A stretch of 64,000 bases of DNA from Desulfurivibrio sp. (GTDB lineage: Bacteria; Desulfobacterota; Desulfobulbia; Desulfobulbales; SURF-16), in assembly GCA_003605035.1 (NCBI GenBank), contig QZKJ01000086.1, positions 1 through 64,000 on the forward strand. Reading direction: 5' to 3'. Below the pieces are notes generated by a model that was not told where the DNA came from, searched no databases, and was given only the letters and a program-made list of their open reading frames with translations. Both the position numbers and the translations under genes were made by a program. The stretch's first letter is position 1. The number at the start of each line of letters is the position of its first letter. Below, one piece after another: positions 26,397 to 58,803 of this stretch.

Positions 26397-26428
26397 AATG
26401 AAATTGATACTAATGCAGAGGTGAAAAT

Positions 26429-27355: not shown

Positions 27356-27367
27356 CAGGAGGAAAAA

Positions 27368-28777: not shown

Positions 28778-30634
28778 ATGACTCTTCCTCTCAAATCAAC
28801 CATCTATGCGATTTACCTTGCAGTCTTTGCCGCCTTGGTAATCCTGCTCAGCCAGGGAGTCCGTCAGTATCAGCTCTATCAGGAACATGAAGCCATCATC
28901 TCCCAGACCGAAAGTCTGATCTTCCAATTCTCCATTATCCGCGAACATGTTTCGGAGGCCCTCCTGGATGACCAGCAATCGAAACTTTCCGGACTCTCTG
29001 CGGAAATGGAAAAACTCAACAGCAATCTGACCACCATTCTGAGCGAAAAAAACATCGGTGATGAGTATAAACTGCCTTTTTTAAACAGCATTGATCTGCC
29101 CGGCATCATCCTACTGTTGCGCAAAATTGAATCCGGAACCGACGAAATAGAAAATAAACGAAATCTGAACAGCGAGATGCGCACCCTGGGTGAAAGGCTC
29201 ATCCTCTTTGACCGGGTCCTGGTCAATAATTCCAAAAAGAAGCTGATCGGCTTTCAGAACATTATCATTGGCTCAGCCACTGTTGTCGTCTTTTTGCTGG
29301 TGACGGTCCTGGCCCTTTTTCACCGGCAGTTGATTGTTCCTTTGCTGCAAATTATCAGCGAAAGCAGTGACGCTGCTTTTGCCCAGCAAAGCACCATTGA
29401 AGTAAAAAGTGCTTCCAAGGACTTGACCCGGTTAACCGGCTCCATTGTCGAGCTGCTTGGGCAACGCCATGACCTGCAGAGGCAATTGCATAACTTTCGC
29501 CAAACATTCTTTGAACTTATCACTTCACTGAAAGGCTTTGTCGTTGTCCTCGCCCCTGATGGGAAAATAATTGAAGTAACTGACAATATTGCCCGACAAT
29601 GCGGATTCAGACCGGAGGAATTGTCCGGCAGGCAATGGCGTGATCTTTTCATCATGCCGCCCGGTGAAACTGGCAAAGAAATATCCGCTCAGCAATTCAT
29701 CGAAAATTTGACCGCCACAAATCAGACTCTGCCTATGTCACTGGCGACAAAAGACCAGAGTTCCCCTTCTCACGTCCGCTGCAGCTTCAGCAAATATGCC
29801 GGGATGGAAAACAGTGAATCATATCAAATATACTGCCTGGGGATTGATCTGTCTGAAGAGCAGGCTATGATAAAAAATCTGGAACAGTGCCTTGCCGCTG
29901 AAAAAAATAAAAAGGCGGAAATGGTGCGCGTCTCCCATCTGGCGGTACTGGGAGAACTGTCCACCGGGGTTGCCCATGAGGTCAGCAATCTCAGCAACGG
30001 CATCATTAATTACGCCCAGGTTCTTGCTGATGCTGCCTGCGACCCTGATTTTGAAATTGAACGGGACAAACTCTTCAAGAAGATTATTGTGGAGGGAGAA
30101 AAAATAGCCGGACTGGCCAAAAACCTGCTCGCCTACGGACAGGATGATGCGCAGTCAAAAGAACTTGCCCCGATCGAAGATGTTCTGCAGAACTCCCTCA
30201 ATCTCATGAGTCACTATTTCAGAATTGACGGGACCACGGTTGAAACAAACTTTAATACCAGCATGCCCTATAGAACCAACGGGCGGCAGATGCAGCAGGT
30301 CTTTCTCAGCATCCTCAACAATGCGCGGCGGGCGCTCAACGAACGCTATCCGCAAAAGGCCGAGAACAAAATCATCAGGATCAGCACCAGTGAAGTTGAA
30401 AAAAACGGGAAAAAGTTGATCCGCCTGATTTTTACCGATTTCGGCATCGGCATAGCAGCGGAGAATTTAAAAAAGGTTTTCGAACCTTCATTTTCCACGA
30501 AACCCGCCTCAGAGGGAGTCGGTCTGGGGCTGACCGTCAGCCGTGAACTCATTGCCCAGCACCATGGCGAAATAAATCTGGAAAGCCAGCCGAATGATCA
30601 TACAACTGTAACGGTGGAACTGCCGGTTATTTAA
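28778..30634 (+). CDS. Membrane sensor histidine kinase with PAS domain
   Basis: The 618-aa protein has a membrane helix (about 8-26), an extracellular helical region (about 30-165), a second membrane helix (about 167-190), a HAMP-like linker, PAS (about 250-360), HisKA and HATPase_c (DFGIG, then VGLGLTVSRE). The H-box reads GVAHEVSNLSNGIINYAQ, so the histidine is kept but the usual NNP is altered. It is clearly related to the tandem kinases at 17983 and 20037. It has no regulator next to it. Its 3' end overlaps the convergent propeller gene by 8 nt. Confidence 0.88.
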   Translation: MTLPLKSTIYAIYLAVFAALVILLSQGVRQYQLYQEHEAIISQTESLIFQFSIIREHVSEALLDDQQSKLSGLSAEMEKLNSNLTTILSEKNIGDEYKLPFLNSIDLPGIILLLRKIESGTDEIENKRNLNSEMRTLGERLILFDRVLVNNSKKKLIGFQNIIIGSATVVVFLLVTVLALFHRQLIVPLLQIISESSDAAFAQQSTIEVKSASKDLTRLTGSIVELLGQRHDLQRQLHNFRQTFFELITSLKGFVVVLAPDGKIIEVTDNIARQCGFRPEELSGRQWRDLFIMPPGETGKEISAQQFIENLTATNQTLPMSLATKDQSSPSHVRCSFSKYAGMENSESYQIYCLGIDLSEEQAMIKNLEQCLAAEKNKKAEMVRVSHLAVLGELSTGVAHEVSNLSNGIINYAQVLADAACDPDFEIERDKLFKKIIVEGEKIAGLAKNLLAYGQDDAQSKELAPIEDVLQNSLNLMSHYFRIDGTTVETNFNTSMPYRTNGRQMQQVFLSILNNARRALNERYPQKAENKIIRISTSEVEKNGKKLIRLIFTDFGIGIAAENLKKVFEPSFSTKPASEGVGLGLTVSRELIAQHHGEINLESQPNDHTTVTVELPVI

Positions 30635-32072
30635 CCACGATAAATGAGTCCGGGGCGGCGCCGAGTTCAATCCAGGCGGCAACCTTGTTTGATGAAAGGT
30701 CAATCACCGCGACCCCTCCTTTCTGCTCATCACCCACATAAAGCCATTGATGGATGAGGGAGACATCCATTTCAAATGGCTTCCCCCCCACCTGGATAGC
30801 CCGGGAGACGTTCAACTGGCCGGGTCTCAGCAATGAAACAGTACCTGAGCCGGCGTTCGAAATATAAATATGACTGTTACCGAAGGCAAGCCGTCTGGGT
30901 TTGAGGCCCACATTAATACGAAAGTTGCTCCTGCCGCCGGGAAGCTCAAAAGCCGACACCGCATTACTGGAACTCTCCGCCACAAATAGGTAGTTATCCC
31001 GCGCCAGCATACCATCAGGTGTTCCGCCTGTATCGACCGTATTAACGATCGCCAGGGAGGTCGCGTCGATGAAATATATTTTCTGGGCATAGGCGCAGGA
31101 GATGGCAAGCAGATTCCTGTCCTCAAGATAGAGCATGTATTTTGGCCGTGAGCCGATGCGGATCTGCCCGTCAACCGTACCGTTCTGCAGATCGAGACGA
31201 AGCAGATTATTCCCCATCTCATCAAGGAGAAAGGCCTTCTTCCCATCCGAACTGACGGTCATATAGGTTGATTTCACCGAAAGAGGTATCCTGATCTGAT
31301 CGATTTTGCGATTTGAGGTCAGCTCAAAAATCTTGACGGCCGAGTCTTTCGGGGCAAGAATGAAGAGTCGATTTTCAGCCTGGTTTGCCACCAGGGTGGT
31401 CGGTTTGCCGCTGATGCCCAGGGAACCGCAAACCATATTCTGATCGGTTCTGACTATGTAAACGGTATCAAGTTCCGGACAGGAGACATAGGCCAGATCA
31501 GTCACCAGGGGAATACTCTGCAGGGAGACCGTCATTTTCGGACTGATTACGGCAGTTCCCTGCATGGAACCGGCAGTATCCCACGTCAGGAAAAGAGAGG
31601 TGCTGTCTTCTTTGGCAAGGTTGAGTTCCGCCGGGAAATTAATTTCAACAAGCGGTTTATCGACCGACAGAAAAATCATTTCCCCGTCACGGTCAAGGGC
31701 CGCCTTTTCAACGGTAAATCTGATGCTCTGATAGCGGCCTGCCGGAACCCCGCCTCTGCCGGCAAGAATTTGTCCGTTGGCCCCCACATCCTTGCGTTGA
31801 ATTTCTTCTCTGGCCGTGGTGAGCGGAAACCAGGTATTATGTGAGCCAACCTCAAGATTACTGATTTTCAGCCACAGATTAGGACCTTCAGGCTCTTGCA
31901 ATCGCAGGAAGACCGACAGCCTCGCATCACCGCTGCTTTCCTGAAGAAACGCGCGGGAAACTGACCCCCCGCTTGCCGCCCCACCCTGCTGGCAACCGGC
32001 GAGAAAAATAACCCCACAGAGCAGAACAAGCAAATTTACGACAGCATGCAATCCAGCCAATCGAGCTTTCAT
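30627..32072 (-). CDS. Beta-propeller lipoprotein (YVTN/NHL-type repeats)
   Basis: The 481-aa protein has a lipoprotein signal with lipobox FLAGC (about 23-27), an N-terminal beta-sandwich region (about 45-190), then six or seven propeller blades (about 195-480) such as AENRLFILAPKDSAVKIFEL and SSNAVSAFELPGG. Propeller proteins commonly accompany extracellular cytochromes and could bind or dock them. It lies 280 bp after the OmcS-like gene and may belong to the same transcript or to one reading past the hairpin at 32161. Confidence 0.85.
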   Translation of the reverse strand: MKARLAGLHAVVNLLVLLCGVIFLAGCQQGGAASGGSVSRAFLQESSGDARLSVFLRLQEPEGPNLWLKISNLEVGSHNTWFPLTTAREEIQRKDVGANGQILAGRGGVPAGRYQSIRFTVEKAALDRDGEMIFLSVDKPLVEINFPAELNLAKEDSTSLFLTWDTAGSMQGTAVISPKMTVSLQSIPLVTDLAYVSCPELDTVYIVRTDQNMVCGSLGISGKPTTLVANQAENRLFILAPKDSAVKIFELTSNRKIDQIRIPLSVKSTYMTVSSDGKKAFLLDEMGNNLLRLDLQNGTVDGQIRIGSRPKYMLYLEDRNLLAISCAYAQKIYFIDATSLAIVNTVDTGGTPDGMLARDNYLFVAESSSNAVSAFELPGGRSNFRINVGLKPRRLAFGNSHIYISNAGSGTVSLLRPGQLNVSRAIQVGGKPFEMDVSLIHQWLYVGDEQKGGVAVIDLSSNKVAAWIELGAAPDSFIVVK

Positions 32073-32351: not shown

Positions 32352-33452
32352 TCAATCCTTGGTTGTATGGCAAACAGCGCAACCGTTATAGCCGGCGCCG
32401 GGCCACGATTTATAATCCCAGCGTAAAATGGCCGGATACGGCGTACCATGGGCGCGATGACAGGAAAGACACATGACAATGGCATCATCGGCTGTTGTAT
32501 AAACAGTACTGTTTATTGCCGCCGTTTTACTCGCTGTGGCCACCGGCGAGATCACGCTGTAGACGTTATTGGCTCCTGAACCGCCGTTATAGGCCGCATA
32601 TTCAGTCGTCGTAGCGGCTCTGCCCATATCAAAATCGGTGGGATGCCGCAGCCAGACCCCACTGCCAAAGGTGCCGGCAGCAATCTTGCCTGATCCCTGG
32701 TGAAAGTCACCATGACATTTGCCGCAGAGACTGCTGATGGTGCTGACATCATTCTGCGTCTCCAGGGTTCGATCAATGCCGTAATATTTGTTATGCTGAT
32801 TGCTTGCCGGCTGGAATTCATACTTCTTATCTTCCAAACCCTGCACGGAGTAGAGAAAACGATAGCTTTTGGCCAAGGTCGACCCGTCCTTCCAGCTGTC
32901 CATGTCATTGGCATGATGGGAGCGCCGCATAGCCTGGATTTGACTGCTTACCGTACGGTCCCCATGACACCCGTAGGTTCCGGCGCAGGTGAGTTGTGTA
33001 GTCAGATCAGCCCCCCCGGGCGGCAGGTTGCCGTGCCGCACATCCGGGCTGGTGATACCTTTGACATTATGCCCGGTTGCCTCCTGGCCGCTGCTCACCC
33101 AGTAGAAATTACCGCCGGCCAGGGTGGTGGTGGTGCCCTCCGTGCCGGTGCTGTCGTAAGTTGGAGGACTGGTCCGCAGGACATAGGGCGTGACAATCCG
33201 GTCATTAACGAGACTATTGCTTCCCTGATGGCAGCCGATACAGTCGGTATTGAGCAAGGCCTCATTGGGTGTAGATGATAAATCCATAGAACCATCCACC
33301 ATATCCAGCACACGCGCAACAGCGGCGCCACCCTGGCTGTTATGCATGGTATGACAATTGCCGCATTGCCCCGTAACCTTGGCATCGCACACCAGTGGAA
33401 ACAGGAGCAAAGGCAGCGTAACCAGTACCTTGACACCTTTTGTTGTCTTCAT
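32352..33452 (-). CDS. OmcS-like multiheme cytochrome c (1)
   Basis: ATG 33452 has AAGGGG at good spacing; 366 aa with a signal peptide. It has five CXXCH motifs (CGNCH, CIGCH, CGKCH, CLSCH, CAVCH) and a sixth heme-like motif with wide spacing, C-AGTYG-CH. Motif order and surrounding words (CGNCHTMHNSQGG, a GHN segment, LRHP, CLSCHRAHG, final CxxCHTTKD) match the layout of Geobacter OmcS, the hexaheme subunit of extracellular cytochrome nanowires. It ends the long minus-strand operon, just after an NHL propeller. It is likely an extracellular, possibly filament-forming, electron carrier. Confidence 0.82.
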   Translation of the reverse strand: MKTTKGVKVLVTLPLLLFPLVCDAKVTGQCGNCHTMHNSQGGAAVARVLDMVDGSMDLSSTPNEALLNTDCIGCHQGSNSLVNDRIVTPYVLRTSPPTYDSTGTEGTTTTLAGGNFYWVSSGQEATGHNVKGITSPDVRHGNLPPGGADLTTQLTCAGTYGCHGDRTVSSQIQAMRRSHHANDMDSWKDGSTLAKSYRFLYSVQGLEDKKYEFQPASNQHNKYYGIDRTLETQNDVSTISSLCGKCHGDFHQGSGKIAAGTFGSGVWLRHPTDFDMGRAATTTEYAAYNGGSGANNVYSVISPVATASKTAAINSTVYTTADDAIVMCLSCHRAHGTPYPAILRWDYKSWPGAGYNGCAVCHTTKD

Positions 33453-33464
33453 GGTCACCCCTTT

Positions 33465-34352
33465 TTAACGGCCAAATACTTCCACCCGACCATTACCCTC
33501 TTCTACAACGCAAAGACCTCCCCAAGGGTCAAATACTATCTCGATCGGGAAATACAGCTCCCCACGCGACCAGCCCTTGGCAAGAAAGGAATATTTAAAA
33601 TTCCCCTGCGGGTCAAAAACATCAATATCAGCCGCATGACGGTCAAGCACATAAACATTATCGGCAGGGCCGATTGCCAGAGAAACAGGGAACTCCACCT
33701 GCTGACCAACATCAAATTGTTTGATCAATTTTCCCTCAGCGTCAAATTGCACCACTTTTTTATCAAGCTGATCCAAGGCCCAGATCCCAGCATTGGTGAG
33801 TTTAAAATCAACGAATCCCGAGGTACACTCAGGACAGGCCAGCCATTTCTGCAAAGCCAGGTCGCTGCCCAGCAAGGCAATCTGACCGCTTTCCTTATCC
33901 AGGACATAGAAAATGCCATTCTTATAGTCAAGCCGGTCCGGCACCAGCACCCTCTCGCCATCCTTGATGATGTGGGTTACGACTTCTTTTGCCTTGATGT
34001 TGATGCTGGTCAGACTGTTGCGCCCTCTCTCCACCACCCAGATGACATCTGCACTCTCACGAACCATGTCATAGGGAATCTGCAGCTTGCCTTCCGCGGT
34101 AAAGGCAAGAAGAAAAGTGCCTTCCCTGGAAAAAGAGAGTAACCGGTTGCCGCCGCTGTCAACCACATAATAGCGTTGCCGCTCGGCATCCACATACAGG
34201 GCTGTAGGCATGACAATGGCCTGGCCGGATCCTGCTCCGTCAAGGGTTGCCTTCCAGGCCCAGGGTTCGGCAGCCAAAGAAGTTGTCGCGACCATAAAAA
34301 TTGAGACTGCCAGCAATGCTGACTGGCTCAACATATTTTTCACGTACCTCAT
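33465..34352 (-). CDS. NHL-repeat beta-propeller secreted protein
   Basis: ATG 34352 follows AAGGAG; 295 aa with a signal peptide (about 1-28, ending SLAAE). Blades show NHL-type words such as YYVVDSGGNRLLSFSREG, NVYVLDRHAADIDVFDPQG and LCVVEEGNGRVEVFGR. It lies 6-12 nt upstream of the OmcS-like gene, so the two are co-translated. An NHL protein also neighbours omcS in Geobacter (from memory), which supports a role in cytochrome export, docking or surface display. Confidence 0.85.
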   Translation of the reverse strand: MRYVKNMLSQSALLAVSIFMVATTSLAAEPWAWKATLDGAGSGQAIVMPTALYVDAERQRYYVVDSGGNRLLSFSREGTFLLAFTAEGKLQIPYDMVRESADVIWVVERGRNSLTSINIKAKEVVTHIIKDGERVLVPDRLDYKNGIFYVLDKESGQIALLGSDLALQKWLACPECTSGFVDFKLTNAGIWALDQLDKKVVQFDAEGKLIKQFDVGQQVEFPVSLAIGPADNVYVLDRHAADIDVFDPQGNFKYSFLAKGWSRGELYFPIEIVFDPWGGLCVVEEGNGRVEVFGR

Positions 34353-34409
34353 AGGGACTCCTTCACTGATCGGCATTCCGTAATCGAAAGGGCTGAATCG
34401 ATATTTCCA

Positions 34410-35585
34410 TCAATATCTCTTATGACACTGGATACACAGATCTTTCGAACCACTGTATATCAATTCATATTTAAAATCAGAGCCCATGGGCAGATGACAG
34501 GTGACGCAGGTCACCATCTGGCCGGTCCTCACATCAACCACCTTTTCTCCTACCGGATGGGTAAATTTCCCCTGGGTCTCATGGCACCGGGAACAGATGG
34601 CATTGCCATCACCCCGCAGCATGGCGATCCGGTTGGAACCATGCACTTCGTGGCAATCGATGCAGGACCCTTCTTTCGCTTTCGGATGCCGGTAAAGTTT
34701 ATTTTCGTAGCGGGCAATGGTGTCGCTATGACAGCCGCGACATACCTGCAGCTGGCTGCCCTTTAATAGATTCTTTTCATTACCGGCATGGGGAGAATGG
34801 CAGGCCACACATTTATTTTCCCCCTTGCCCGTTAAATGACTATGCCGAGCCAGCATGCCGGTCGCAACCGCTTCATGACATCTGAGACAACTCCGGGTAC
34901 TGCCCTGAATTTCTCCCTTATCATGACATTCTTTACAGCCCTGGGCAAAAGGCGCGTGGAGGACATCACGAACAATGCCCGGCCTGCTGCTGCCGTGCGG
35001 ATTGTGACACGACAGACAATCGCGCAGGGTTCCGGGATAATTCACATGACCTTTCTGCAGGTCCTGGGAGTTATGGCAGGACAGACAGACTTTATCAGGT
35101 TCATCCTTGAGCAACTGGCCGAAAACTGACTGATGAGGCAGGTGGCAGGAATAACATTGCCCCTGGGCGTAAGGATTATGGGTATATTGAAACTTCGGAA
35201 GAAGTTTCGTATGGCAGCCGAAACAGGTTTCGCTTAACTGATCCTTGATAAGCCCGTTTCTGGAGCTTGCATGCGGCACATGGCAGGCAAGACATTGACC
35301 GCTGCGCACGGGCTGATGGACCATGCCCTGCTTGAAGGCCTGCTCCTCCTTCTCATGACAGGAAAAACAGAGTGCTGAGCCCTCCTGCTCCAGCAATCCC
35401 TTAAAATGCGCCACATGAGGATTATGACAGCTGCCGCATTGCCCCTTGACCAGCGGTTGATGCACAACTTTGCCGCTGAAGGCCTCTTTTTTATGGCAAG
35501 TAAAACAGACCGTTTCTGCTGCCGCTGCTAAGGGAAAAACTATGGCAAGCCAGGAAATGACAAAGATTCGATAATAACGTAACAT
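34410..35585 (-). CDS. 16-heme c-type cytochrome
   Basis: The start ATG overlaps the stop of the 26-heme gene (TAATG at 35587-35583), giving 391 aa with a signal peptide. I count 16 CXXCH motifs, arranged in repeated CHxPH-type pairs (CGSCHNPH, CLACHVPH, CYSCHLPH, CLSCHNPH), the doubled-CXXCH pattern of NrfB-like or decaheme domains. Such proteins form linear heme wires in the periplasm or through an outer-membrane barrel. It is part of the porin-CsgG-like-cytochrome operon. Confidence 0.9.
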   Translation of the reverse strand: MLRYYRIFVISWLAIVFPLAAAAETVCFTCHKKEAFSGKVVHQPLVKGQCGSCHNPHVAHFKGLLEQEGSALCFSCHEKEEQAFKQGMVHQPVRSGQCLACHVPHASSRNGLIKDQLSETCFGCHTKLLPKFQYTHNPYAQGQCYSCHLPHQSVFGQLLKDEPDKVCLSCHNSQDLQKGHVNYPGTLRDCLSCHNPHGSSRPGIVRDVLHAPFAQGCKECHDKGEIQGSTRSCLRCHEAVATGMLARHSHLTGKGENKCVACHSPHAGNEKNLLKGSQLQVCRGCHSDTIARYENKLYRHPKAKEGSCIDCHEVHGSNRIAMLRGDGNAICSRCHETQGKFTHPVGEKVVDVRTGQMVTCVTCHLPMGSDFKYELIYSGSKDLCIQCHKRY

Positions 35586-37549
35586 TATTTTCTGCCCTCC
35601 CCAGGATGACACGGACTGCATTTGCCTTCGGCAAACGGCTTATGGCTTACCGGGAAGAGTAAGCCTTTTGTCGGACCGCCATGAGGGTCATGGCACTTCA
35701 GACAGGAATCATTGCCCGGACGAATTCCTTGATGCACGGCAGTAAATCGCGTTTCGGTGAAATTATGACAGCGGGCGCAGAGCAAACCACCTTTTTCATG
35801 CACAATTCCTTTATTGATTGAGGCATGGGGATCATGACATTGCGAACAATTCTTAGCCGCCGGATCATGGGCGAAACCATCCTGCCAATAGGTGGCAATC
35901 TGCTGATGGCAGCTGAGACAAAGGGCCGGTTCATTTCTGGCGAGATTATCCGGGTTTGTCGAGCCATGGGCCAGATGGCAGGCCGCGCAATTCAGATCCT
36001 TCACCGGTCCATGAACCACCGGAGCATCGCTGATCTCTTTTTCCATCTCCCCATGACAGCCGAGACATTGTTTGCCAGGATTTTCTTTCAGACTGTAAAC
36101 GTAATCTCCGGCATGGGGAGAATGGCATTTCTGGCATTCTTTTTTCGCAAAGGGATCATGCGCGATGAAATTCTCCTTTTGTTTTTCCAGAACCTTATGA
36201 CAGGAAAAACAAAGCCTGCCGCCAACCTCGCTCTCCTTTAACAGATTCTTTCTTTCCCCCTGATGAGGCTGGTGACAACGACTGCACTCACCACTGGCAA
36301 AAGGGGTATGGAGATTGAAGCTGCCCATTTCTTTGGCACTTTTCTCATGACAAGAAAGACATATCTCCTTCTCATTCCTGGCAAGTAATTTTCTCTCGCC
36401 TGTTTCATGGGGGTTATGGCAGCTCAGACATTTGCTCTCTTTTGCCGGAGGATGGGAAACAGTGCCCTCACTGTAGAGACTCTTCTGATGGCACTTATAA
36501 CATAACTGCGCAGAATCGAGAGCCAGCAGCGCTTTCTGCGGTGAACTGTGCCCCATATGACAGGAAAGACACTGTCCCTTGCTGTAGGGATCATGGCTGC
36601 TTTTAATCTTGGCCTTGTCCTCCCCGGCATGACAACTTACACAGGCCTTTCCCTCGGACGCGGCAAGCATATAGCTGTTTTCACTGGCATGCGAGGCATG
36701 ACACTTGAGACAGAGCCCCTCGGTAAAGGGCTTATGCTGACTGGTCATCTTCTTGTTGCTGCGAGGATGACAGGATAAACAGGCGGCATTGGCCTCGCCT
36801 TTCATCAGCAGTTTCCCATCTGCGCCTATCTGATGACAACCAGCACAATTGCCCTCCACGACCGGCTTATGCACGACGGACTTTAATAAATGAAGGCCGT
36901 CGGAACTGTGCGGGCTATGGCAGAGAACGCATTTCCCCTGGACCGGATAATCCCGGTGACTTTGCCGGAAAGAAGCCGTATCATTTTTATGACAGGAAAG
37001 ACAGAGACTGTCTGCGTCCTGTTTGAGGAGGGCTTGCACATCCGATCCATGGTTCAGGTGGCAGCTGCCGCATCCCTCTTTAACAGGTGCATGCACATTG
37101 GTTCTGGAAAATTGCCTCCTGTCATGACAGGTGAAACATATCTCCGGGCTGGGTGATTGCAACAGCCCCTTATTCGCGCTGTTATGCACTGCATGGCAGG
37201 AGAGACACCGGCCTTCGGCAACAGGCCGGTGCACGGCTTTCTTCTTGCTCTCTGCTTCATTCTGTCGATGACAGACATAGCACTGCTCAGGCGGGTTCTG
37301 CCGGAGATACGTGCCTCCGATCATGCCATGATGAAGATGGCAGGCTTCACAGTTGTCTTCCTGCACAGGCTTATGAACGACACCCTGTTTGAAGGCTGCC
37401 GCCATATCGGCGTGGCATTCCACACAGCTTTTCCGGGGCTGTCTCACCGCCTGTTGGCTGCTGGCGCAGGAAACAAGCAAACTGAGGATGAACGCCAGTC
37501 CAATAAATAACTTGATTCTATTTCCCGACATGAAGATCACCGAGCTCAT
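35585..37549 (-). CDS. 26-heme c-type cytochrome lipoprotein
   Basis: The 654-aa protein has lipobox LLVSC (about 24-28), so it should be a membrane-anchored lipoprotein. I count 26 CXXCH motifs spread evenly (about one per 24 residues) in doubled CHxxH modules. There is almost no non-heme domain, which suggests a long heme wire. ATG 37549 overlaps the parvulin gene end by 32 nt; an ATG 6 codons later is possible. It overlaps the following 16-heme gene by 1 nt. It is probably the central conductor across the envelope, but membrane side and partners are inferred. Confidence 0.9.
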   Translation of the reverse strand: MSSVIFMSGNRIKLFIGLAFILSLLVSCASSQQAVRQPRKSCVECHADMAAAFKQGVVHKPVQEDNCEACHLHHGMIGGTYLRQNPPEQCYVCHRQNEAESKKKAVHRPVAEGRCLSCHAVHNSANKGLLQSPSPEICFTCHDRRQFSRTNVHAPVKEGCGSCHLNHGSDVQALLKQDADSLCLSCHKNDTASFRQSHRDYPVQGKCVLCHSPHSSDGLHLLKSVVHKPVVEGNCAGCHQIGADGKLLMKGEANAACLSCHPRSNKKMTSQHKPFTEGLCLKCHASHASENSYMLAASEGKACVSCHAGEDKAKIKSSHDPYSKGQCLSCHMGHSSPQKALLALDSAQLCYKCHQKSLYSEGTVSHPPAKESKCLSCHNPHETGERKLLARNEKEICLSCHEKSAKEMGSFNLHTPFASGECSRCHQPHQGERKNLLKESEVGGRLCFSCHKVLEKQKENFIAHDPFAKKECQKCHSPHAGDYVYSLKENPGKQCLGCHGEMEKEISDAPVVHGPVKDLNCAACHLAHGSTNPDNLARNEPALCLSCHQQIATYWQDGFAHDPAAKNCSQCHDPHASINKGIVHEKGGLLCARCHNFTETRFTAVHQGIRPGNDSCLKCHDPHGGPTKGLLFPVSHKPFAEGKCSPCHPGEGRK

Positions 37550-39146
37550 TTTTAATTTTCTCCCAGGCGCGGTTGTTTATTTCAATAACCGATCTTTCCT
37601 TCAGCACGGCAAGATATTCATTGCGTACCTTGGCAAATCTTTCCGCATCAACCAGGCTGGCAACCTTATCGTGTACATGGTCAAAGGGCATGGGGGTGGC
37701 CGGAGTCCGTTTTATCAATTTAATTATTGTATGATGACCTTTTACCACAAAAGGCTTACTCGTTTCGCCAATCACCAGGCTATCAACAACCTTCTGCACA
37801 ATGGGGTCAAGATGTCTGAATTGCATGTTCTGCACCGGCACTTCCCCGGAGTAATAACGGGACGCCACGTCAAGGAGATCAGCCCCTCTTTTCATTTCCT
37901 CATCCATCTTTTTAATCAGGTTTTCCTCATCCTCCACCACGGCTATGGAAACCATTTCCGGCTGCGAAAAACGATCAAGATGTTGCTGATAATACTTTTC
38001 GATATCCTGCTCACTGACCTGAACCTGCGGCCTGAAAAGACGTTTTTCAAGCTCCTTTATCAGACGGTGCTGGGTATAAAAAAGGTAAAGCGGCTTTAAC
38101 GGTTCTTTTTCTTCATAATGTTCATCAAGTGCCCCCCTTGTTGTAAGGGTTTGCGCCAGCACCCCATCAAGCAAGCGTTGTTTCAGCTGCTCGCCCTCTT
38201 CAACATTAAAACCGTACTGTTTGCGGAAACGCAGTTCTTTGTTGACCAGATCCAGAAATACTCGCACCGTATAATTTTCATTATCCATGGAAATAAGCGT
38301 CTGATCAAGCAGATCCTCATTGGCAGCATCAAGCTTCAGGGCAGCAAACACCTGCTGATTTATGGCGACCTGATATTTTTTCTTCAACTGTTCGACCAGG
38401 GCGACAGTAAGTTCCTGCTCCTTTGTTTCCCTGATCTCATTAGTGATCATCGGTTTCAACAGTTCAAAATCCTCAGCATCATATCCCTGCTGGGCCTTGA
38501 GCCGGATCATCACAAAACCCTTACTCCATGGAAAAGGTTCGGACAGCGAACCTGGCGCAAGCTTTGCAACTACTGGACGCCACTCCTGCTGAAGCTTATT
38601 GATGCGCAGCCATTTTTCTTCATAATACAGGGAATTCTTGTCATTTTTTGTCGAATCTGCCGCAAACAGAGCAACATCGAGATTTCCTTCTTTTATCTGC
38701 TCGTAAGATCTTTTCGCCACCGCCTCGTCATTAAAATACAGAATCTGCAGCTGCAGGCGGGGGAGATATTTTTCCTTATAACGATCTTGCAATTCCTTAT
38801 CTGTTATCTTAACCCGGGAATTGATCTTATCCCCCTTATACAGCAACAAGGTCCGCGCTTTCAGGAATATTTCTATCTTATGGCGATAGTCCGGTTCATT
38901 ATACAGCTCCATTTTTTCCGCTTCCTGCACCAGCAAATGCCAATCAACAAAAGGATCAGCTGATTCAGGGAAAGGCATGTCCTTTTCTTTCCAGTTGATC
39001 CACCAGTTTTTAAAATCGTCGGTGGTGAAATTGCTGCCATTGATGGTTGCGAGTTTCTCCGCTCCCCAGGGCCACGCCGTGGCATCACCGGCGATAACCA
39101 ACAGCGAGAAAAAAAATAGTGCCCCTATAAATCCTATTTTCCGCAT
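37518..39146 (-). CDS. Periplasmic parvulin-type peptidyl-prolyl isomerase / chaperone
   Basis: ATG 39146 follows AAGGA; 542 aa with a signal peptide (about 1-25). It has a SurA/PpiD-like N-terminal helical region (TINGSNFTTDDFKNWW), a first rotamase-like region around PGSLSEPFPWSKGFVMIRL (about 200), a second helical region (about 330-370), and a second PpiC-like domain (about 390-500; DVASRYYSGEVPVQNMQF, SKPFVVKGHHTIIKL). Its place directly before two giant cytochromes suggests it helps fold them or the barrel. It overlaps both neighbours, so coupling is tight. Confidence 0.85.
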   Translation of the reverse strand: MRKIGFIGALFFFSLLVIAGDATAWPWGAEKLATINGSNFTTDDFKNWWINWKEKDMPFPESADPFVDWHLLVQEAEKMELYNEPDYRHKIEIFLKARTLLLYKGDKINSRVKITDKELQDRYKEKYLPRLQLQILYFNDEAVAKRSYEQIKEGNLDVALFAADSTKNDKNSLYYEEKWLRINKLQQEWRPVVAKLAPGSLSEPFPWSKGFVMIRLKAQQGYDAEDFELLKPMITNEIRETKEQELTVALVEQLKKKYQVAINQQVFAALKLDAANEDLLDQTLISMDNENYTVRVFLDLVNKELRFRKQYGFNVEEGEQLKQRLLDGVLAQTLTTRGALDEHYEEKEPLKPLYLFYTQHRLIKELEKRLFRPQVQVSEQDIEKYYQQHLDRFSQPEMVSIAVVEDEENLIKKMDEEMKRGADLLDVASRYYSGEVPVQNMQFRHLDPIVQKVVDSLVIGETSKPFVVKGHHTIIKLIKRTPATPMPFDHVHDKVASLVDAERFAKVRNEYLAVLKERSVIEINNRAWEKIKNELGDLHVGK

Positions 39147-39742
39147 GGCTTCATTCCTTCGGCGAACCATTCTTCGATTATCTCATCCGAAGTGATCCGA
39201 CTGAGTTGCGTCATGGTATTAACCAGCCCAAAATGCATGACCTTTCGATAATCAGAACCTTCACGCCTGTGATAGGTGGTCCACATCGTTTTGCCGCTTT
39301 TGGCGTCATAAACTTGCAATGTCAAGGCCAGGACAGGATTTACATAGATATCCCCTATTTTTTCTTCCATTTCCGTTATTCTACCATTGATGATGAGCTG
39401 AACATCAAGCCTGCTGCCAAGCACCCTGAGCTGCTCAATACTGGGAAGTTGATTGGGGAAAATACGCAGTTCCTGATAAATGTTCTGAACATCTCCTTCA
39501 GAGGAGATTTCGATACCGGCAAGGCGGCTCAACTCTGCAGCAAAAACCCGCTGCATGACCAGATTGCCCTGCTCAAAGCGACTGCTGTTGATAAAGGGGA
39601 GGAGAGCAACTTTACAGATGCTCTCCTCTTCATAGACATTTTTTTTTTCGAGCAAAGGTTTTGCTGAAGTACAGGAACTGACCCCTGGCAGGAGGGCGAT
39701 AAGAAGAAACAGGAAGAAATATCTGCATCGCGTAAAATTCAT
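39134..39742 (-). CDS. CsgG/LpoB-like lipoprotein (third of the trio)
   Basis: The 202-aa protein has lipobox GVSSC (about 20-24). It has the alpha/beta fold of CsgG/LpoB/GNA1162-type proteins: VALLPFINSSRFEQGN near residue 45, LGSRLDVQLIINGRITEMEE near 108, and LTLQVYDAKSGKTMWTTYHRREGSD near 138. Relatives build or regulate outer-membrane secretion or cell-wall machines. It follows a larger member of the same fold by 19 nt. Confidence 0.75.
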   Translation of the reverse strand: MNFTRCRYFFLFLLIALLPGVSSCTSAKPLLEKKNVYEEESICKVALLPFINSSRFEQGNLVMQRVFAAELSRLAGIEISSEGDVQNIYQELRIFPNQLPSIEQLRVLGSRLDVQLIINGRITEMEEKIGDIYVNPVLALTLQVYDAKSGKTMWTTYHRREGSDYRKVMHFGLVNTMTQLSRITSDEIIEEWFAEGMKPCGK

Positions 39743-39761
39743 AGTAAGTGATCTGCCCTCG

Positions 39762-41237
39762 TTAAAATTCCGGAACCCACTCCTGCTGCTTCGGCGGTTC
39801 AGGCTTGTCGTCCTCGATATTTACCAATTGCATAAGATTATCGACTTTTTTCTGCACCTTATTGCCTAGTATATCCTTCATGCAGACAATACCTTCAAGT
39901 TTCCTGGAATCTGACGATGAAGGAAAAGGGATGAGGATATCTACAGGGAGATCACTTCCCTGGCTCTGCAGCAGAACCTCGCCGTCAGAATACAGAATTT
40001 CGGCACTCCAGTAATCAACGGGGATTGCATCTTCAGAATCCAGAGTTACGATGAGACTTTCATCACCTACTGCCGCGTTTATCAGCGGAATTGGCGGATT
40101 ACTCTTTAGATACACCTTTTGGGTCGTCACGGTGGCGTTATTTGCCCTGTCCCACACCTTCAACACAATCTCATAGATACCGTCATCAGCCTTGCGACCA
40201 TCAGGACGTTGTCCTTTCCAGACGAAACGCTTGGGCAAGGAACCTTTATTCTCCGTCCCCGCCATTACCTGACCCCCGATATTCTGGATGAACAGCGACC
40301 ACCGGGAGAGCGGTTCAGGGTCCTGCCAAACAGGGGTAATCGGCAGCTTGTCATTAAATGCCAGGAAATTATCCACTTTTTTCCCCGCAACTTTCAAGCT
40401 CAATTTCGGGCTATGGGTATCGACCTGATAATTACCGATAAAAAAAACAAATGATCTGCCCGACTGGCATCGTAAAACAAGACTGACGGGCTGGGATCCT
40501 TCAAGGTCAGGGGCGGCCCAGAAAACGGAGTAGGAGTTGGGAGCGATCTCCACCATATCAAGATAATTATCTTCGCCGATCTTAAGCAGCACTTGCGAGA
40601 TCGTCTCGCTCCCTGCCGGCGGTCGGATTTTGACTGAACAACTCACCTCATCACCCGGTTTCACATGCTGGGCGGAAAGTCGCGAAGTCTCAACCACAAT
40701 GCAGGGATTCCTGCCGGTAACTTCCAGCACGTCTGGCCAGCTGTTCAGGAGTTGCTGCGAAAGAACCGGCAATAAGTCATCAATGCTTTCCGGTTCATCA
40801 ATGGCAAGAAAATTTGAGACGTCGGCCTTGCTCACGCCGCCGACCTCAGTCCAGACCGTCCGCGCATCACTGGTTCGTACCAGGGTCAGTACCATGCCTA
40901 ACGCTGCCAGCGGCAATTCCTGGCGTTGACTGACTGTCCCGAAGAGAATAAAATCAGCGCCAAGGTCATCCAGAACTTGATAAATATGGCTTGTTCCGAG
41001 AAAACCGAGCCATCGGATACGGTTCCTGGACATAAACGAGATCACTTGATCCGTAGGAACGACTTCAATCCCTTTTTCCTGCAGATTCTGCTGTAAAAAA
41101 TCGGTGAGGGTAAAATTGACCCCATTACGCCCTTCACTGAGGTCTTCCACAGGGAAAACAGCCACGGTGACAGCCTGCGCAGAGGAGGCAATCAGAGTGG
41201 TGATCGTCAGCAGCGTTATAATGAGGAGCTTTTTCAT
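39762..41237 (-). CDS. CsgG/TolB-N-like protein with Ig-like C-terminal domains (second of the trio)
   Basis: The 491-aa protein has a signal peptide (about 1-22) without a lipobox cysteine. The N-terminal third (about 23-160) has the CsgG/TolB-N-like fold (VAVFPVEDLSEGRNGVNFTL; LDDLGADFILFGTVSQRQEL). The rest has FlgD/Ig-like beta domains (DDGIYEIVLKVWDRANNATV near residue 360). It ends in a proline-rich tail. It is probably a periplasmic scaffold or adaptor of the envelope complex encoded by this operon. I know no described homologue by name. Confidence 0.7.
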   Translation of the reverse strand: MKKLLIITLLTITTLIASSAQAVTVAVFPVEDLSEGRNGVNFTLTDFLQQNLQEKGIEVVPTDQVISFMSRNRIRWLGFLGTSHIYQVLDDLGADFILFGTVSQRQELPLAALGMVLTLVRTSDARTVWTEVGGVSKADVSNFLAIDEPESIDDLLPVLSQQLLNSWPDVLEVTGRNPCIVVETSRLSAQHVKPGDEVSCSVKIRPPAGSETISQVLLKIGEDNYLDMVEIAPNSYSVFWAAPDLEGSQPVSLVLRCQSGRSFVFFIGNYQVDTHSPKLSLKVAGKKVDNFLAFNDKLPITPVWQDPEPLSRWSLFIQNIGGQVMAGTENKGSLPKRFVWKGQRPDGRKADDGIYEIVLKVWDRANNATVTTQKVYLKSNPPIPLINAAVGDESLIVTLDSEDAIPVDYWSAEILYSDGEVLLQSQGSDLPVDILIPFPSSSDSRKLEGIVCMKDILGNKVQKKVDNLMQLVNIEDDKPEPPKQQEWVPEF

Positions 41238-41342
41238 AATAATCGAATCACACTAAAATTTTTCTGCAATTCACAAGACAATGCCCCTGCCGGTTACAAC
41301 TCACCGGCAATATTGATATTACGGCACCTCACGCGATTTTTT

Positions 41343-42479
41343 TTAAGGCTCAACCGTCATCGTTGCATCAGTTTCCGGCTCAACGACAGGCTCAACAGGA
41401 ACCGGCTCGGCAGGAGCTGCTTCATCACCGGTAACTGGGTCCGCAGCTTGAGGTTCACCCTCAACAGCTTCAGGCGCAACTGCTGCGGGTTCTGCCACTG
41501 CAGGCTCTGTCTCCTCCCAGGGCTCAGCAGGAACCGGCTCGGCAACTGCTGGCGGTTCCTCCTCGGCCACTGGCGCTGCTTCAGCAGGTTCAGCTTCCTC
41601 TGCCGCTGCAGGTTCTGCTTCCCCCCAAGGCTCAGCAGGGACAGGCTCGGTAACCGTAGCCGGTTCTTCCTCTCCGGCCACCGGCGCTGCTTCCTCGGGT
41701 TCAACTTCTTCTGCCGCCGGCTCGATTACCTCGGCTGCCGGGGCTGCAGCTTCTCCCTCCACCGCAGGCGCCCCAGGAGCAGATTCTTCAGCAGCTGCCG
41801 GTTTCGCAGCTTCCGGGGTGATAGATACCGGTTTAACAACCACGGGCTTAGCAGCCACAGGCTCAGCGGCAACAGGCTCAACAGGCAGCGCAGCGGGCAC
41901 GTTTTCCCTCTCCGGAATCGTAGAGAGAAGCTTCTTGACAAGCTTGACGGTAACCTTGTAAGTATCATCGGGAGTCACGCCAAAAAGCCGTCCCACAATG
42001 GAATCTCCCGCATAATGACCGCTGGCCTGCCATAAGACAATGCCGGACTTTATTTCGATAAGCCGGAGGGTTACGCTCATTTCCGGAACAATGACCGAAC
42101 CGATCCGTCTATCTCCTGCCATATCAACGGAACCTAGCATGATAGACTGCACATTCAGTCGCTGGCCAAGTCTGCTGAGCATAAGCTGACTCACAGGAGA
42201 TCCAGGGTCAATGGCTTCTTCATGCAGAACACTGTCGACAATCCCTTTGTCCACCACGTCAAAGATATTCATGGCCAGAATCTGGGTATTGATCACATCC
42301 CTGGCCAGCTCAGCTGCATATTTCTGGTCCGTATTATTTTCCAGAGGAAGAACGCTGATTCTGTTGACAAAGTCCAGCGTCACATCTTCTCTCATAAAAG
42401 AAACTGTCGTTTTTCCGGAACAGCCGGCCAGCATGGAAAAACACATCAACGTCAGTATGGAGCATATTATTCTTTTCAT
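41343..42479 (-). CDS. CsgG-like lipoprotein with long Ala-Pro-Glu tail (first of the trio)
   Basis: The 378-aa protein has lipobox MLAGC (about 16-20). Residues 40-185 have the CsgG-like fold (RISVLPLENNTDQKYAAELA; LGQRLNVQSIMLGSVDMAGD; LRLIEIKSGIVLWQASGHY). From about 190 to the end it is a low-complexity Ala/Pro/Glu tail with internal repeats (two copies of EPVPAEPW, each about 38 residues apart). Such tails often span the periplasm toward peptidoglycan. It lies 54 nt after the barrel gene. A curli-like secretion or anchoring role is inferred from fold and context only. Confidence 0.75.
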   Translation of the reverse strand: MKRIICSILTLMCFSMLAGCSGKTTVSFMREDVTLDFVNRISVLPLENNTDQKYAAELARDVINTQILAMNIFDVVDKGIVDSVLHEEAIDPGSPVSQLMLSRLGQRLNVQSIMLGSVDMAGDRRIGSVIVPEMSVTLRLIEIKSGIVLWQASGHYAGDSIVGRLFGVTPDDTYKVTVKLVKKLLSTIPERENVPAALPVEPVAAEPVAAKPVVVKPVSITPEAAKPAAAEESAPGAPAVEGEAAAPAAEVIEPAAEEVEPEEAAPVAGEEEPATVTEPVPAEPWGEAEPAAAEEAEPAEAAPVAEEEPPAVAEPVPAEPWEETEPAVAEPAAVAPEAVEGEPQAADPVTGDEAAPAEPVPVEPVVEPETDATMTVEP

Positions 42480-42532
42480 GAACAGAACCCTTGGAAAATT
42501 AAATTTGAACGTTTATCATTTATGTTTAAACA

Positions 42533-44569
42533 TCAGTAACGAATGACAAACTGCCCTCCGTACGCAAACTCGGTCTCATCTTCATCAATATAGGTACAAT
42601 AGGCGTGCATTGAGAAAATCTTGTTAATTGTCCAGTTATAACTTGCGCTGTAATCATCCGCATCTTCACTGTGGTCAAGACTCAGATTCAACTGGGTTTT
42701 GTAGGTGGGCGCCACGGTGACACTTAAATAATAGGTAAATTCAGAAGAGTCCTCTTCATCCCACTCGTTGCCGCCACCCACCTGCATGGAGAGTATATCA
42801 GAAGGCCTCCAGCTGACGCCAATTAAACTGGCCGCGGTCCAGGTATTTTCTTCATCATTTGAGGTATTATATCTTTCCGTCAGATCAACGGTCATTTCGG
42901 GGTTGAGCCGTGCGGTAAACTTCAAGGTGGAATTGAAGTCCTGTGAGGTATTATCCAGTTCTTCATCAGTATCGGTGATATAGGCAAGATCAAGATTCGA
43001 GGTCAGATCAGGGAATATCAACGCGGTCATAAACATGTTGTAATTATAGCCTGTGCTCGTTTTCACGTCTGCTTCATAGTTATCGCTGCGCGTAACGCCC
43101 CAGTTCATGTCCAGGGTGGGAAGCAGCAGCGATGAAAAGCTGATGGAGTATAAACGCGTCTTCTCCTCGTCTTCATCTTCTATCTGATCCGTAGATTCGC
43201 TGGCGCTGACGGTTGAAGAAAACTCCTGAGTGGGAGACCAGATGAAACTTGTGGCGTTGTAGGTCCGGTCAAGGTCATTTTCCGAGGATGTCTGACCGTC
43301 TTCCAGAATCAGGTTATAGGTCCACTGGAGCTCGGGGGTGATATCGAAACGGACGCCGGTGTCGCCTAGATAATTATACGAGTCTGTTTCGCTTCTGAAT
43401 TTCTGGCCGGCTTGTCCAGTAACCCTTTCATAGGCTTCAACCCGGCTTATGGTGAAATCATCATCAGTGGGGACATCATTTTCCACCAGCATGATATAGC
43501 GCGCGGTTAATTGAATAATTTCGACTTCAAAACGCTGCTGGATAGGGTCGTATTGCATGGAGAGCGGCGCCCCCTGGGGAGTCCAGTTGGTTCCGTCATT
43601 ACTGGAATAGACAGACAAGCGGAAGAGGTTGAGATTCCCTGCTTCCGTTTCCGTCAGGTCCTGCTCGGTGTAAATGTAGATCGCGTTGACCGGTCTGGGG
43701 TCAACCTGAAAGATGGCCAGGTTATAGCGTTCATTGGCAGGGACTACCTGGGGAAGGGGGCTCAGATCTGTCCAGTCCGGTTCCTCATCCGGAAATCTAT
43801 TATCCTGGCCGCCGCGACTTACGATGCTGTGAATGGGGACCAGAACAGTTCCCCCAGGCTCAAAGCGTGTTTCAAACTCCTGGGTATTCTTGGAATACTG
43901 CCCGAGAAAGGTTACATTAAGACGATCCTGCCAGAAGGATTTGTCTGTGGTCAGACGGGCAAGCTGATTGGTGGATTTATCATTACTGTTGTCAACGAAA
44001 TTATCGGTATCATTGAGATCTATGTTGTAATAGGCTTTGGCATACAATAAATCCCAGTCGATATTGAAACCGCTGTAGGTGCTTTCCGTGTCAAGCTCGC
44101 TGGGACTCTCGTCATCCTTGGTGCTGCTCATTCCATAATTGAGCTGCACGATCGGCCAGAGTTCCTTCTGCCAGTTACTGGTCCACCTGCCCTGCCAGTT
44201 GCTGCTGGTCTGATCGGCCCTTTCAGAGTTGCGCAGCTTGGTCCAGGTGCCGGACAGGTCAAAATAGAATATTTCATTATTTATCTGGTAGTCAAGGGAC
44301 GGGGTAATGGCCTCTGTTTCACTGCCTTCCCGGAAGGTTGTGGTATAGCGGAGATTTTCATCAAGGCTCATGACCGGAGTCAGCGGTTGCTCAAACTCAA
44401 GCGTGGTGCTCTGATTGACTTGAGACTCACCCCCTTCATCCTCAGTATGCTGATATGCTCCGACAGCATTAAATGAGAGAGGCTGTCCCTGAACAAGATC
44501 GTTGCAGAGAAAAACCATCAACAACAGGGCAAGGATAATGCCGTTATATTTTCTCCCTCCTCGCATCAC
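42533..44569 (-). CDS. Outer-membrane beta-barrel protein with discoidin-like insertion
   Basis: The 678-aa protein has a signal peptide (about 1-29), many alternating beta strands with Asp/Glu-rich loops, and a C-terminal aromatic residue in GGQFVIRY, as usual for barrels recognised by BamA. An inserted domain (about 285-400: SVYSSNDGTNWTPQGAPLSM, then TARYIMLVENDVP) looks like an F5/8 type C (discoidin) module. It is first in the cytochrome operon. It could be the porin sheath of a porin-cytochrome conduit or a surface barrel. No similarity to a named conduit porin is evident to me. Confidence 0.78.
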   Translation of the reverse strand: MMRGGRKYNGIILALLLMVFLCNDLVQGQPLSFNAVGAYQHTEDEGGESQVNQSTTLEFEQPLTPVMSLDENLRYTTTFREGSETEAITPSLDYQINNEIFYFDLSGTWTKLRNSERADQTSSNWQGRWTSNWQKELWPIVQLNYGMSSTKDDESPSELDTESTYSGFNIDWDLLYAKAYYNIDLNDTDNFVDNSNDKSTNQLARLTTDKSFWQDRLNVTFLGQYSKNTQEFETRFEPGGTVLVPIHSIVSRGGQDNRFPDEEPDWTDLSPLPQVVPANERYNLAIFQVDPRPVNAIYIYTEQDLTETEAGNLNLFRLSVYSSNDGTNWTPQGAPLSMQYDPIQQRFEVEIIQLTARYIMLVENDVPTDDDFTISRVEAYERVTGQAGQKFRSETDSYNYLGDTGVRFDITPELQWTYNLILEDGQTSSENDLDRTYNATSFIWSPTQEFSSTVSASESTDQIEDEDEEKTRLYSISFSSLLLPTLDMNWGVTRSDNYEADVKTSTGYNYNMFMTALIFPDLTSNLDLAYITDTDEELDNTSQDFNSTLKFTARLNPEMTVDLTERYNTSNDEENTWTAASLIGVSWRPSDILSMQVGGGNEWDEEDSSEFTYYLSVTVAPTYKTQLNLSLDHSEDADDYSASYNWTINKIFSMHAYCTYIDEDETEFAYGGQFVIRY

Positions 44570-44884
44570 CAGCTACATTCCACATGTAATTAATAATTGC
44601 ATACAGTCATTTTAATCCAGCCCAGAAATTCCCTTCCCAGCACATTACAAAAAGACCTGAAACAGAAAGATTATGCAATAGTTTAATGAAGAAAATGCAA
44701 AATAAATCAGGCACCTACTTCATTAATTTGTTAAAAATAAATAATAACGCCCCTGATACAAAAAAAATTCCGGCCTGGAAACGATTAGGAGGGAAGGGGT
44801 ATCGTTTCCTGGCCGGAATTTATCTCATGAGATATTCTTTGCTGTTGTTAGATTAACATAAAAATCACTTGCAGAACCTGTTCA
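44570..44884. other. Intergenic region with operon promoter and upstream terminator
   Basis: There is no gene here. It holds the terminator of the second OmcS-like gene (44765-44821) and about 190 bp of AT-rich DNA in which the promoter of the barrel-cytochrome operon should lie. I see no clear sigma-54 element and no full RegA-like box in it. Confidence 0.6.
44765..44821 (-). terminator. Rho-independent terminator with 21-bp arms
   Basis: AAATTCCGGCCTGGAAACGA-type arms (44765-44785 and 44801-44821) pair with one mismatch across a 15-nt purine loop. On the minus strand the stem is followed by a run of eight T. It ends the OmcS-like (2) transcript and separates it from the operon downstream. 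Confidence 0.88.
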
Positions 44885-45997
44885 TCAACCAGCATCCTTG
44901 GTGGTATGACATGCAAAGCAGCCACAGGCGGCATTATTCGCTCCAGCCTCGCAGGTGCTGTAGTCCCAGCGTAGCAGATCCGCATTTGGCGAACCATGGG
45001 CGCGATGGCAGGAGATACAGTTCACGATGGCGTCGCCCGCTGTGTTATTGACGTCACTTACCGGGCCGGCAAGTGCTGCCGGCCGGTCAGTGGCTACGGG
45101 AACGAGGGGCAGATAGGTTCCATCAACGCCATAACTCGCATATTCCGTGCCGGCCAGATTATTCATGTCATAATCGGTGGGATGCCTGAGCCACGCGGAA
45201 CCGGCGGTGTTGGCGGTGTCGGCGCCTTTGTCATCGGCTGCGCCGGAGTGGAAATCGCCATGGCATTCAGCACAGAGGTAGTTGATGCTCTTGATCCCCT
45301 CGCCGGCGGTAGGCGGGGTATCGTTTGTTCGGTCATAACCGTAGTATTGATTATGATCGGTCGAATCGTTGGTATATTCCCAGTCGCTGTCCTCATAACC
45401 GATTATACCGTACAGAAAACGGAAACTCTTTGCCGCTGTTGAACCATCAATGGCTGCGTCGTCGGCATGATGCGATCCTGAGATGGCGGTAAAATCATCG
45501 ATAAGGGTTGTCCCGTCACCGTGTTCACCATGACAGCCATAGGTTCCCGCGCAGGTGAGCTGCTGGTCCCAGGTTCCTGCCTCAGTCACCTGGGTATTGG
45601 CATCAAAAGCTGAATTCCAGCCCGGGGGTGTTTCTCCCAAAGTAGCATCAGAGGAATTCAAACCAACAACATTATGGCCTGCGGTGTCATCACCTGCCAC
45701 TACCCAGCGGAAGTTGCCGCCGGCAAGGGTATTGGTGCCATAGGTAGCCGTGGCCGAGAAAACATAGGGAATGTTGCCCCCACTGTTAGCTCCGGTATGA
45801 CAGCCGACGCAACCGCCGGTCTTGTTGACCAGGGCGCCCTGCGGGGCGGCAATAAGATCACCCCCGTCCTGGCTGTTATGCATGGTATGGCAGTCCACAC
45901 AGGGTCCCTGGGCCTTGCCAACGGCGAACTGTGGCGCCGTCAAGGCAAAACCAAGCAGTCCCAAACCTAGTGACAATACTTTCATTCTTTTAAGCAT
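44885..45997 (-). CDS. OmcS-like multiheme cytochrome c (2)
   Basis: ATG 45997 follows GGAGGGA and gives 370 aa with a signal peptide (about 1-28). Heme motifs are CVDCH, CVGCH, CAECH, CISCH and CFACH, plus the same wide C-AGTYG-CH motif seen in paralogue 1. Shared words (PCVDCHTMHNSQDGG, GHNVVG, LRHPTDYDM, CISCHRAHGSP, CHTTKD) show both are OmcS-type. It is a single-gene unit with its own terminator and a perfect-core RegA-like box 77 bp upstream. It is likely the highly expressed filament cytochrome. Confidence 0.84.
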   Translation of the reverse strand: MLKRMKVLSLGLGLLGFALTAPQFAVGKAQGPCVDCHTMHNSQDGGDLIAAPQGALVNKTGGCVGCHTGANSGGNIPYVFSATATYGTNTLAGGNFRWVVAGDDTAGHNVVGLNSSDATLGETPPGWNSAFDANTQVTEAGTWDQQLTCAGTYGCHGEHGDGTTLIDDFTAISGSHHADDAAIDGSTAAKSFRFLYGIIGYEDSDWEYTNDSTDHNQYYGYDRTNDTPPTAGEGIKSINYLCAECHGDFHSGAADDKGADTANTAGSAWLRHPTDYDMNNLAGTEYASYGVDGTYLPLVPVATDRPAALAGPVSDVNNTAGDAIVNCISCHRAHGSPNADLLRWDYSTCEAGANNAACGCFACHTTKDAG

Positions 45998-52179: not shown

Positions 52180-52288
52180 AATCCGCTCATCACCGATAGA
52201 AAATAGAATCATTTTTCAAAAATCAGGCATTACAAAAAATTAATCCCGCAAACCGCATGTGGCACGAAACTCTCAATATCCCGGAACA

Positions 52289-58705: not shown

Positions 58706-58712
58706 GCTGTCA

Positions 58713-58748
58713 AAAGAGTGAGCAGAGCTTCTGCTCACTCTTTTTTTT
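58713..58748 (+). terminator. Rho-independent terminator between the 12-heme genes
   Basis: AGAGTGAGCAG and CTGCTCACTCT form an 11-bp stem with loop AGCTT, followed by eight T. Read-through to the next gene may be partial. Confidence 0.92.
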
Positions 58749-58803
58749 CTCAGCCAGCCCGGAACATTCAGTGTTCTGCTTACCCATGAAGAAAGGAATA
58801 CTT

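Follow-up and report, generated by a model that had tools for sequence, protein, structure and literature searches.

What a gene block that sets multiheme cytochromes beside envelope proteins does, and whether it has been described before, is the question raised by the 64,000-nucleotide stretch of Desulfurivibrio sp. DNA analysed here (contig QZKJ01000086.1, positions 1 to 64,000; "the window" below). On its minus strand, from position 45997 down to 30627, eleven co-directional genes encode an OmcS-like cytochrome, an outer-membrane barrel, three PelC/LpoB-like proteins, a parvulin, a 26-heme and a 16-heme cytochrome, an NHL propeller, a second OmcS-like cytochrome and a YncE-type propeller (Table 1). 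An original prediction, made from the letters alone, had suggested that this may be one dedicated system that carries electrons across the envelope and exports or anchors cytochrome filaments. The genes that it named are present on the minus strand, with the exact heme counts (26 and 16) and the expected overlaps; its list of ten genes was correct, and the YncE-type propeller, which lies beyond the range that it covered, belongs to the cluster as well.

Conservation of the block was assessed with the 491-amino-acid LpoB/PelC-like protein as query in 247 genomes of the phylum. Stretches of 20 kb around 20 matches were read together with two loci from metagenome-assembled genomes (a contig scan with a single protein gave two close genomes of this kind), making 22 loci. 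The barrel, the three LpoB/PelC-like genes, the parvulin and the 26-heme and 16-heme genes were kept in this order in all 22, and the NHL gene follows the 16-heme gene in every locus except where contig ends cut it off. Three of the third PelC-like genes were missed by the automatic step and were identified by eye, and the barrel was recognised only by profile in loci L051, L053-L055 and L057. With cut-offs of E<=1e-30 for the barrel and of about 1e-50 or better for the 26-heme protein, each was present in 37 of the 247 genomes (two of the 26-heme matches are contig-edge fragments), and both occurred together in 36 genomes, against about 5.5 expected by chance. The neighbourhood check that had been proposed with the original prediction was thus positive: the genes are conserved together in relatives, as one co-inherited system in which OmcS-like cytochromes are combined with envelope machinery. 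An accidental grouping of these genes, with no joint function, is refuted by the 22 loci and by the co-occurrence in 36 of 37 genomes, and its probability is practically nil.

The same components, in the same core order, make up the osc operon of Geobacter sulfurreducens (GSU2504-2493), the order being that of related Geobacteraceae genomes, from which the Osc names of the window genes were also assigned. Genomes of the Geobacteraceae type carry an OmcS-like gene, a YncE propeller, a barrel, two LpoB/PelC-like genes, a parvulin, the 26-heme and 16-heme genes and NHL. OscH is said to contain a prolyl isomerase, OscE, OscF and OscG to be channel-like and OscD to be propeller-like. According to two papers (PMC13194489, PMC12977616) that cite Shen et al. 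2025 (doi 10.1016/j.chembiol.2024.12.013), the operon comprises omcS (GSU2504), omcT and oscC (GSU2501, OmcS-like) and an eight-gene "nanowire secretion" block (GSU2500-2493), with oscI (GSU2495, 26 hemes) and oscJ (GSU2494); in OmcS nanowires, OscD was assigned to morphology, OscE-G to secretion and OscH to folding. Compared with osc, the window cluster has three PelC/LpoB-like genes where osc has two, between the barrel and the parvulin, has at the far end the YncE-type propeller whose homologue is first in the canonical operon, and has cargo from another clade, with a CX5CH motif at heme 3.

Two further literatures describe these genes. An OetI-type conduit (oetABI, OmcX and an OmcS-like cytochrome) was reported from the sulfate-reducing partners of anaerobic methanotrophic archaea (ANME) and also from Desulfobulbia (Murali 2023, PMC10553843). 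It likewise has a barrel, two cytochromes and OmcX and OmcS-like genes; the text available of that paper reads it as an electron conduit, and a mention of PelC-like genes or of a parvulin was not found in that text. An operon of 26-heme, 16-heme, peptidyl-prolyl isomerase and six-bladed propeller genes was assigned to three clades, one of them with Desulfuromonas and Desulfurivibrio alkaliphilus, the latter carrying two copies (Skennerton 2017, PMC5539420). These four core genes are common to the window; cytochrome export and the link to OmcS were unrecognised in 2017. From the agreement in gene content it follows that the names Oet and osc refer to one set of genes, an equivalence of which no explicit statement was found in the portions of the literature searched. 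The window has the barrel, LpoB/PelC-like, parvulin, 26-heme, 16-heme and NHL genes together, and an OmcS-like hexaheme cytochrome adjoining them. It is a cluster of the osc/Oet kind, already described, and the earlier notion of a gene set without a named system does not hold. The proposed export and wiring of cytochrome filaments is supported by the same homology. By our own assignment, the 26-heme protein is probably OetB and the 16-heme protein OetA.

Equating the window cluster with the osc operon of Geobacter was ruled out by another contig, C47, of this genome. A search with OmcS from the PDB as query found true OmcS relatives (46-47% identical) there, surrounded by genes in the canonical osc order. 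In trees of the parvulin, the 26-heme protein (where the G154 row, a wrong or cut copy, was ignored) and the cytochromes, the canonical osc and window clades split with support of 99-100% in the Shimodaira-Hasegawa-like approximate likelihood ratio test (SH-aLRT). The parvulin and 26-heme genes of the window fall outside the Geobacter-type osc clade, its cytochromes do not group with OmcS (6ef8; separate clades, 100%), and cytochrome and machinery clades divide in parallel into an osc and a window type. The barrel, parvulin and OscG-like proteins are about 17-26% identical to those of the same genome's canonical osc, and this genome (G000) and G008 each hold both systems. Given the separate clades, the low identity and the osc genes on C47, the window locus is, as judged from sequence, an old paralogous system distinct from the OmcS operon. 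The loci of G038 and G136, and L051, L053-L055 and L057, lie outside both clades and may represent the ANME-partner clade of Skennerton. The latter five loci form a third cluster variant, with a 5-heme and/or a protein of about 185 amino acids between the second and third LpoB/PelC-like genes, a 15-heme OscJ and, in most, a 3-heme protein after NHL.

D. alkaliphilus AHT2, which is of the window's order, has two window-type loci. Its protein DA_402 was described as an extracellular OmcS homologue that is more than 100-fold up-regulated in sulfide oxidation with iron oxide (Nature 2025, PMC12545173). Both quantitative PCR primers for DA_402 map inside the OmcS-like gene adjoining the barrel of the first locus (L043), which places a window-type cytochrome beside osc/Oet machinery; a companion cluster was not found mentioned in the available text of the DA_402 paper. 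DA_756 and DA_765 were also up-regulated (PMC12545173). Because their spacing of nine gene numbers equals that of the OmcS-like pair flanking the second locus, we infer from the numbering that they are this pair.

The two OmcS-like proteins of the window, recognised as such in the original prediction, are 43% identical to each other. The sole PDB match of the downstream copy was OmcS (6ef8, E=1.2e-5), over nearly the full length; the upstream copy alone gave no match reaching OmcS in the PDB search. The motif CxxCHxMH is kept in all 42 window-type cytochromes, and 30 of the 42 carry CX5CH, which is present in 0 of 33 osc-type proteins. In 26 aligned window-type hexahemes, CAGxxGCH (rarely CSG or CAT) stands at the position of the third CXXCH of OmcS. 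Heme attachment at CX5CH would be expected, and six heme sites with bis-histidine ligation are plausible, since the CX5CH cysteines and histidine and seven further histidines are invariant in the 26 sequences. The spelling CX5CH occurred in none of the papers listed by a literature search for it. The histidine of the CHTMH motif in the window cytochromes presumably corresponds to His16 of OmcS, the ligand to the neighbouring subunit's heme. In the OmcS filament, one ligand of heme505 is supplied by the neighbouring subunit (PMC6584659).

The window cytochromes are about 30% identical to OmcS, and of the Geobacter paralogues none but OmcS itself is a proven wire. Both facts would suit a surface display of the OmcS-like cytochromes as monomers or short assemblies that form no filaments, which is compatible with an export model or with a conduit model. 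This display is considered unlikely: CHxMH is retained throughout the 42 sequences, and the published AlphaFold2 (AF2) oligomer of DA_402 is a filament (PMC12545173). The genome from which the window comes also encodes three stand-alone window-type OmcS-like cytochromes at L069 9618-10709 (contig C63), L070 9352-10539 (C1) and L071 7934-9157 (C34); one of them has seven CXXCH motifs and one has odd CX5CH/CX6CH motifs, and companion genes were not seen nearby.

The AF2 model of the barrel has a mean predicted local distance difference test score (pLDDT) of 83.3 and about 28 strands, of which 11 precede and 17 follow an insert, as counted from the DSSP string. The insert matches CBM32 (2jd9, E=1.1e-5) and is predicted from strand parity to face outside. 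The first PelC/LpoB-like lipoprotein matched PelC-type 5t11 (E=6e-9) and PelC 9h80 (E=2e-8), and PelC-type chains were the best solved matches of both lipobox-bearing PelC-like proteins. The first lipoprotein of the window also has a long Pro/Ala/Glu/Val-rich tail (41343-41900), while most relatives end near residue 195-230. The 491-amino-acid protein gave weak LpoB/PelC/GNA1162 matches and stronger matches to immunoglobulin-like (Ig-like) domains; its AF2 model (pLDDT 84.8) consists of one alpha/beta domain followed by Ig-like domains, which dominated the Foldseek search and made it uninformative on the ring domain. In NCBIfam, the barrel and the PelC-like genes received no name, the only match being one to LpoB below the threshold.

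The three small proteins had been called CsgG/LpoB-like. The second half of this label was confirmed by LpoB and PelC matches, and the first was not: Pfam and PDB searches returned LpoB, GNA1162, FlgT_M and PelC only, and membership of the CsgG family was rejected in favour of PelC/LpoB/GNA1162. The window cluster and the CsgG curli pore both place small lipoproteins that face the periplasm next to a fibre subunit that is secreted, but the window proteins are without a CsgG match, and barrel-forming hairpins were not apparent in the AF2 model of the 491-amino-acid protein, the one of the three that was modelled. With the exporter of the Pel polysaccharide (PelB/PelC) the window cluster shares a PelC-fold lipoprotein and an outer-membrane barrel; the window cargo is a cytochrome and its barrel is larger, and the likeness is one of analogy.

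The reading that best fits these data, at a probability of roughly 0.7, is a second system of the osc/Oet type, one for folding and exporting OmcS-like hexahemes and connecting them electrically. The cytochromes and their partners would enter the periplasm through Sec and receive their hemes, and the parvulin, a likely chaperone, would hold the cytochrome export-competent. Rings of PelC/LpoB-type lipoproteins and the Ig-domain protein, beneath the barrel of about 28 strands, would guide the cytochrome outward, much as PelC and PelB do for Pel. Outside, the cytochromes could polymerise through the CxxCHTMH histidine, which in OmcS ligates the next subunit's heme; the 26- and 16-heme proteins would pass electrons across the envelope into the filament, and the propellers might shape or cap it. 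In favour of this system, OmcS proper is flanked by these genes, with their core order unchanged, both in Geobacter-type genomes and on C47. The block kept in 22 loci, the published osc roles, the parallel split of cytochrome and machinery clades, the heme sites and CHxMH histidine of the window-type cytochromes, the position of DA_402 and the PelC-type matches of two ring candidates speak for it as well.

Several points weigh against it. The analogy to PelC/PelB stands on profile matches with E values of 1e-6 to 1e-9, and the function could have drifted given the low identity to the canonical osc proteins. A filament sighting or a demonstration of export for the window clade was not found in the literature, and homologues were reported to be unexpressed during metal respiration in several organisms. 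The best fold match of the barrel by template modelling (TM) score is to MtrB, an electron conduit rather than a secretion pore: among the many barrels listed by Foldseek, MtrB (6r2q_B) had the highest TM-score (0.42/0.44). A sequence match to MtrB was not found, and the fold likeness is suggestive only. The locus could be mainly a trans-outer-membrane conduit (OetABI), in which the barrel and the 16-/26-heme wire receive a docked OmcS-like cytochrome exported by other means, such as a type IV pilus. Murali 2023 proposed this model for what are apparently the same genes (PMC10553843), the barrel is in the size class of MtrB, the N-terminus of the 26-heme protein is lipobox-like, and pilA-dependent export of OmcS is cited in the literature. 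It leaves unexplained the always-kept parvulin, the three PelC-like lipoproteins, the propellers and the published osc roles, and a 26-heme chain far exceeds the ten hemes of MtrA; as the principal function it is the main rival reading and is judged rather unlikely. Export and conduit are compatible with each other: the barrel may be the exporter and the 26- and 16-heme proteins the electron feed.

Table 1. Features of the cluster and a probably accessory cytochrome pair in the window
Feature	Position	Strand	Details
OmcS-like hexaheme cytochrome, upstream copy (likely cargo)	44885..45997	-	370 aa, 5 CXXCH + CAGTYGCH, signal peptide
Outer-membrane beta-barrel, OscE/OetI-like	42533..44569	-	~28 predicted strands, discoidin/CBM32-like insert after strand 11
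PelC/LpoB-like lipoprotein, OscF-like	41343..42479	-	lipobox Cys20; LpoB PF13036 E=4e-6
LpoB/PelC-like domain (residues ~24-165) then Ig-like domains, OscG-like, 491 aa	39762..41237	-	FlgD_ig PF13860
Third PelC-like lipoprotein, separate gene in window clade	39134..39742	-	PelC 9h80 E=5.5e-6; weak FlgT_M
Periplasmic parvulin-type prolyl isomerase, OscH-like	37518..39170	-	Rotamase_2 E=1.5e-23; in all loci
26-heme cytochrome, OscI-like	35585..37549	-	26 CXXCH; lipobox-like N-terminus
16-heme cytochrome, OscJ-like	34410..35621	-	16 CXXCH; profile matches in canonical loci
NHL six-bladed beta-propeller	33465..34376	-	NHL PF01436 E=2.7e-10
OmcS-like hexaheme cytochrome, downstream copy	32352..33458	-	368 aa, 5 CXXCH + CAGTYGCH; OmcS 6ef8
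YncE-type beta-propeller lipoprotein, OscD-like, far end of cluster	30627..32072	-	YNCE PF21783 E=6.5e-6
Pair of neighbouring 12-heme cytochromes, putative OmcX type (probably accessory)	57857..59739	+	12 CXXCH each

The genes are tightly spaced from the barrel through the downstream OmcS-like gene. As called, the third PelC-like gene overlaps the parvulin gene by 37 bases, the parvulin gene the 26-heme gene by 32 and the 26-heme gene the 16-heme gene by 37; the remaining gaps are 6-105 bases, and 315 bases separate the upstream OmcS-like gene from the barrel. This upstream gene has an ATG start and a ribosome-binding site (GGGAGGGA), its end coordinate being that of the original prediction. 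Promoter and terminator scans gave results little above those of shuffled sequence and were set aside. Pairs similar to the 12-heme pair were found in L040, L045, L047, L052 and L056, and flanking the cluster in L049. In the window, the pair lies about 12 kb from the cluster, within a further block of envelope genes (50884-59739) that also encodes an NHL propeller and 10-heme, 8-heme and 5-heme cytochromes. On the other side, 25833-28624 encodes a 5-heme cytochrome, a Tat-type 4Fe-4S protein and an NrfD-like membrane protein (recognised by eye, with no Pfam match), adjoining several sigma-54 regulators and kinases; it is possibly an inner-membrane quinone module feeding the cytochromes.

The analysis joins three literatures, on the 26-heme operon, the Oet conduit and the osc cluster, that name the same genes differently. 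New with respect to the literature searched are the coexistence of two paralogous systems in a single genome, the clade's third PelC-like gene and its CX5CH signature, and the physical link of DA_402 to osc/Oet genes. Cargo and exporter may evolve in matched pairs, as is suggested by finding both of these old and separate systems together. We propose tentatively, at not quite even odds, that the window clade represents another class of cytochrome nanowire with its own exporter and CX5CH-heme subunits, which this genome and G008 would run beside OmcS/osc to serve a different electron partner or a different direction of flow, such as iron-oxide respiration driven by sulfide. The cluster is linked with the cytochrome most strongly induced when sulfide is oxidised with iron oxide, and through this tie the need for companion genes in the display of DA_402-type cytochromes becomes directly testable.

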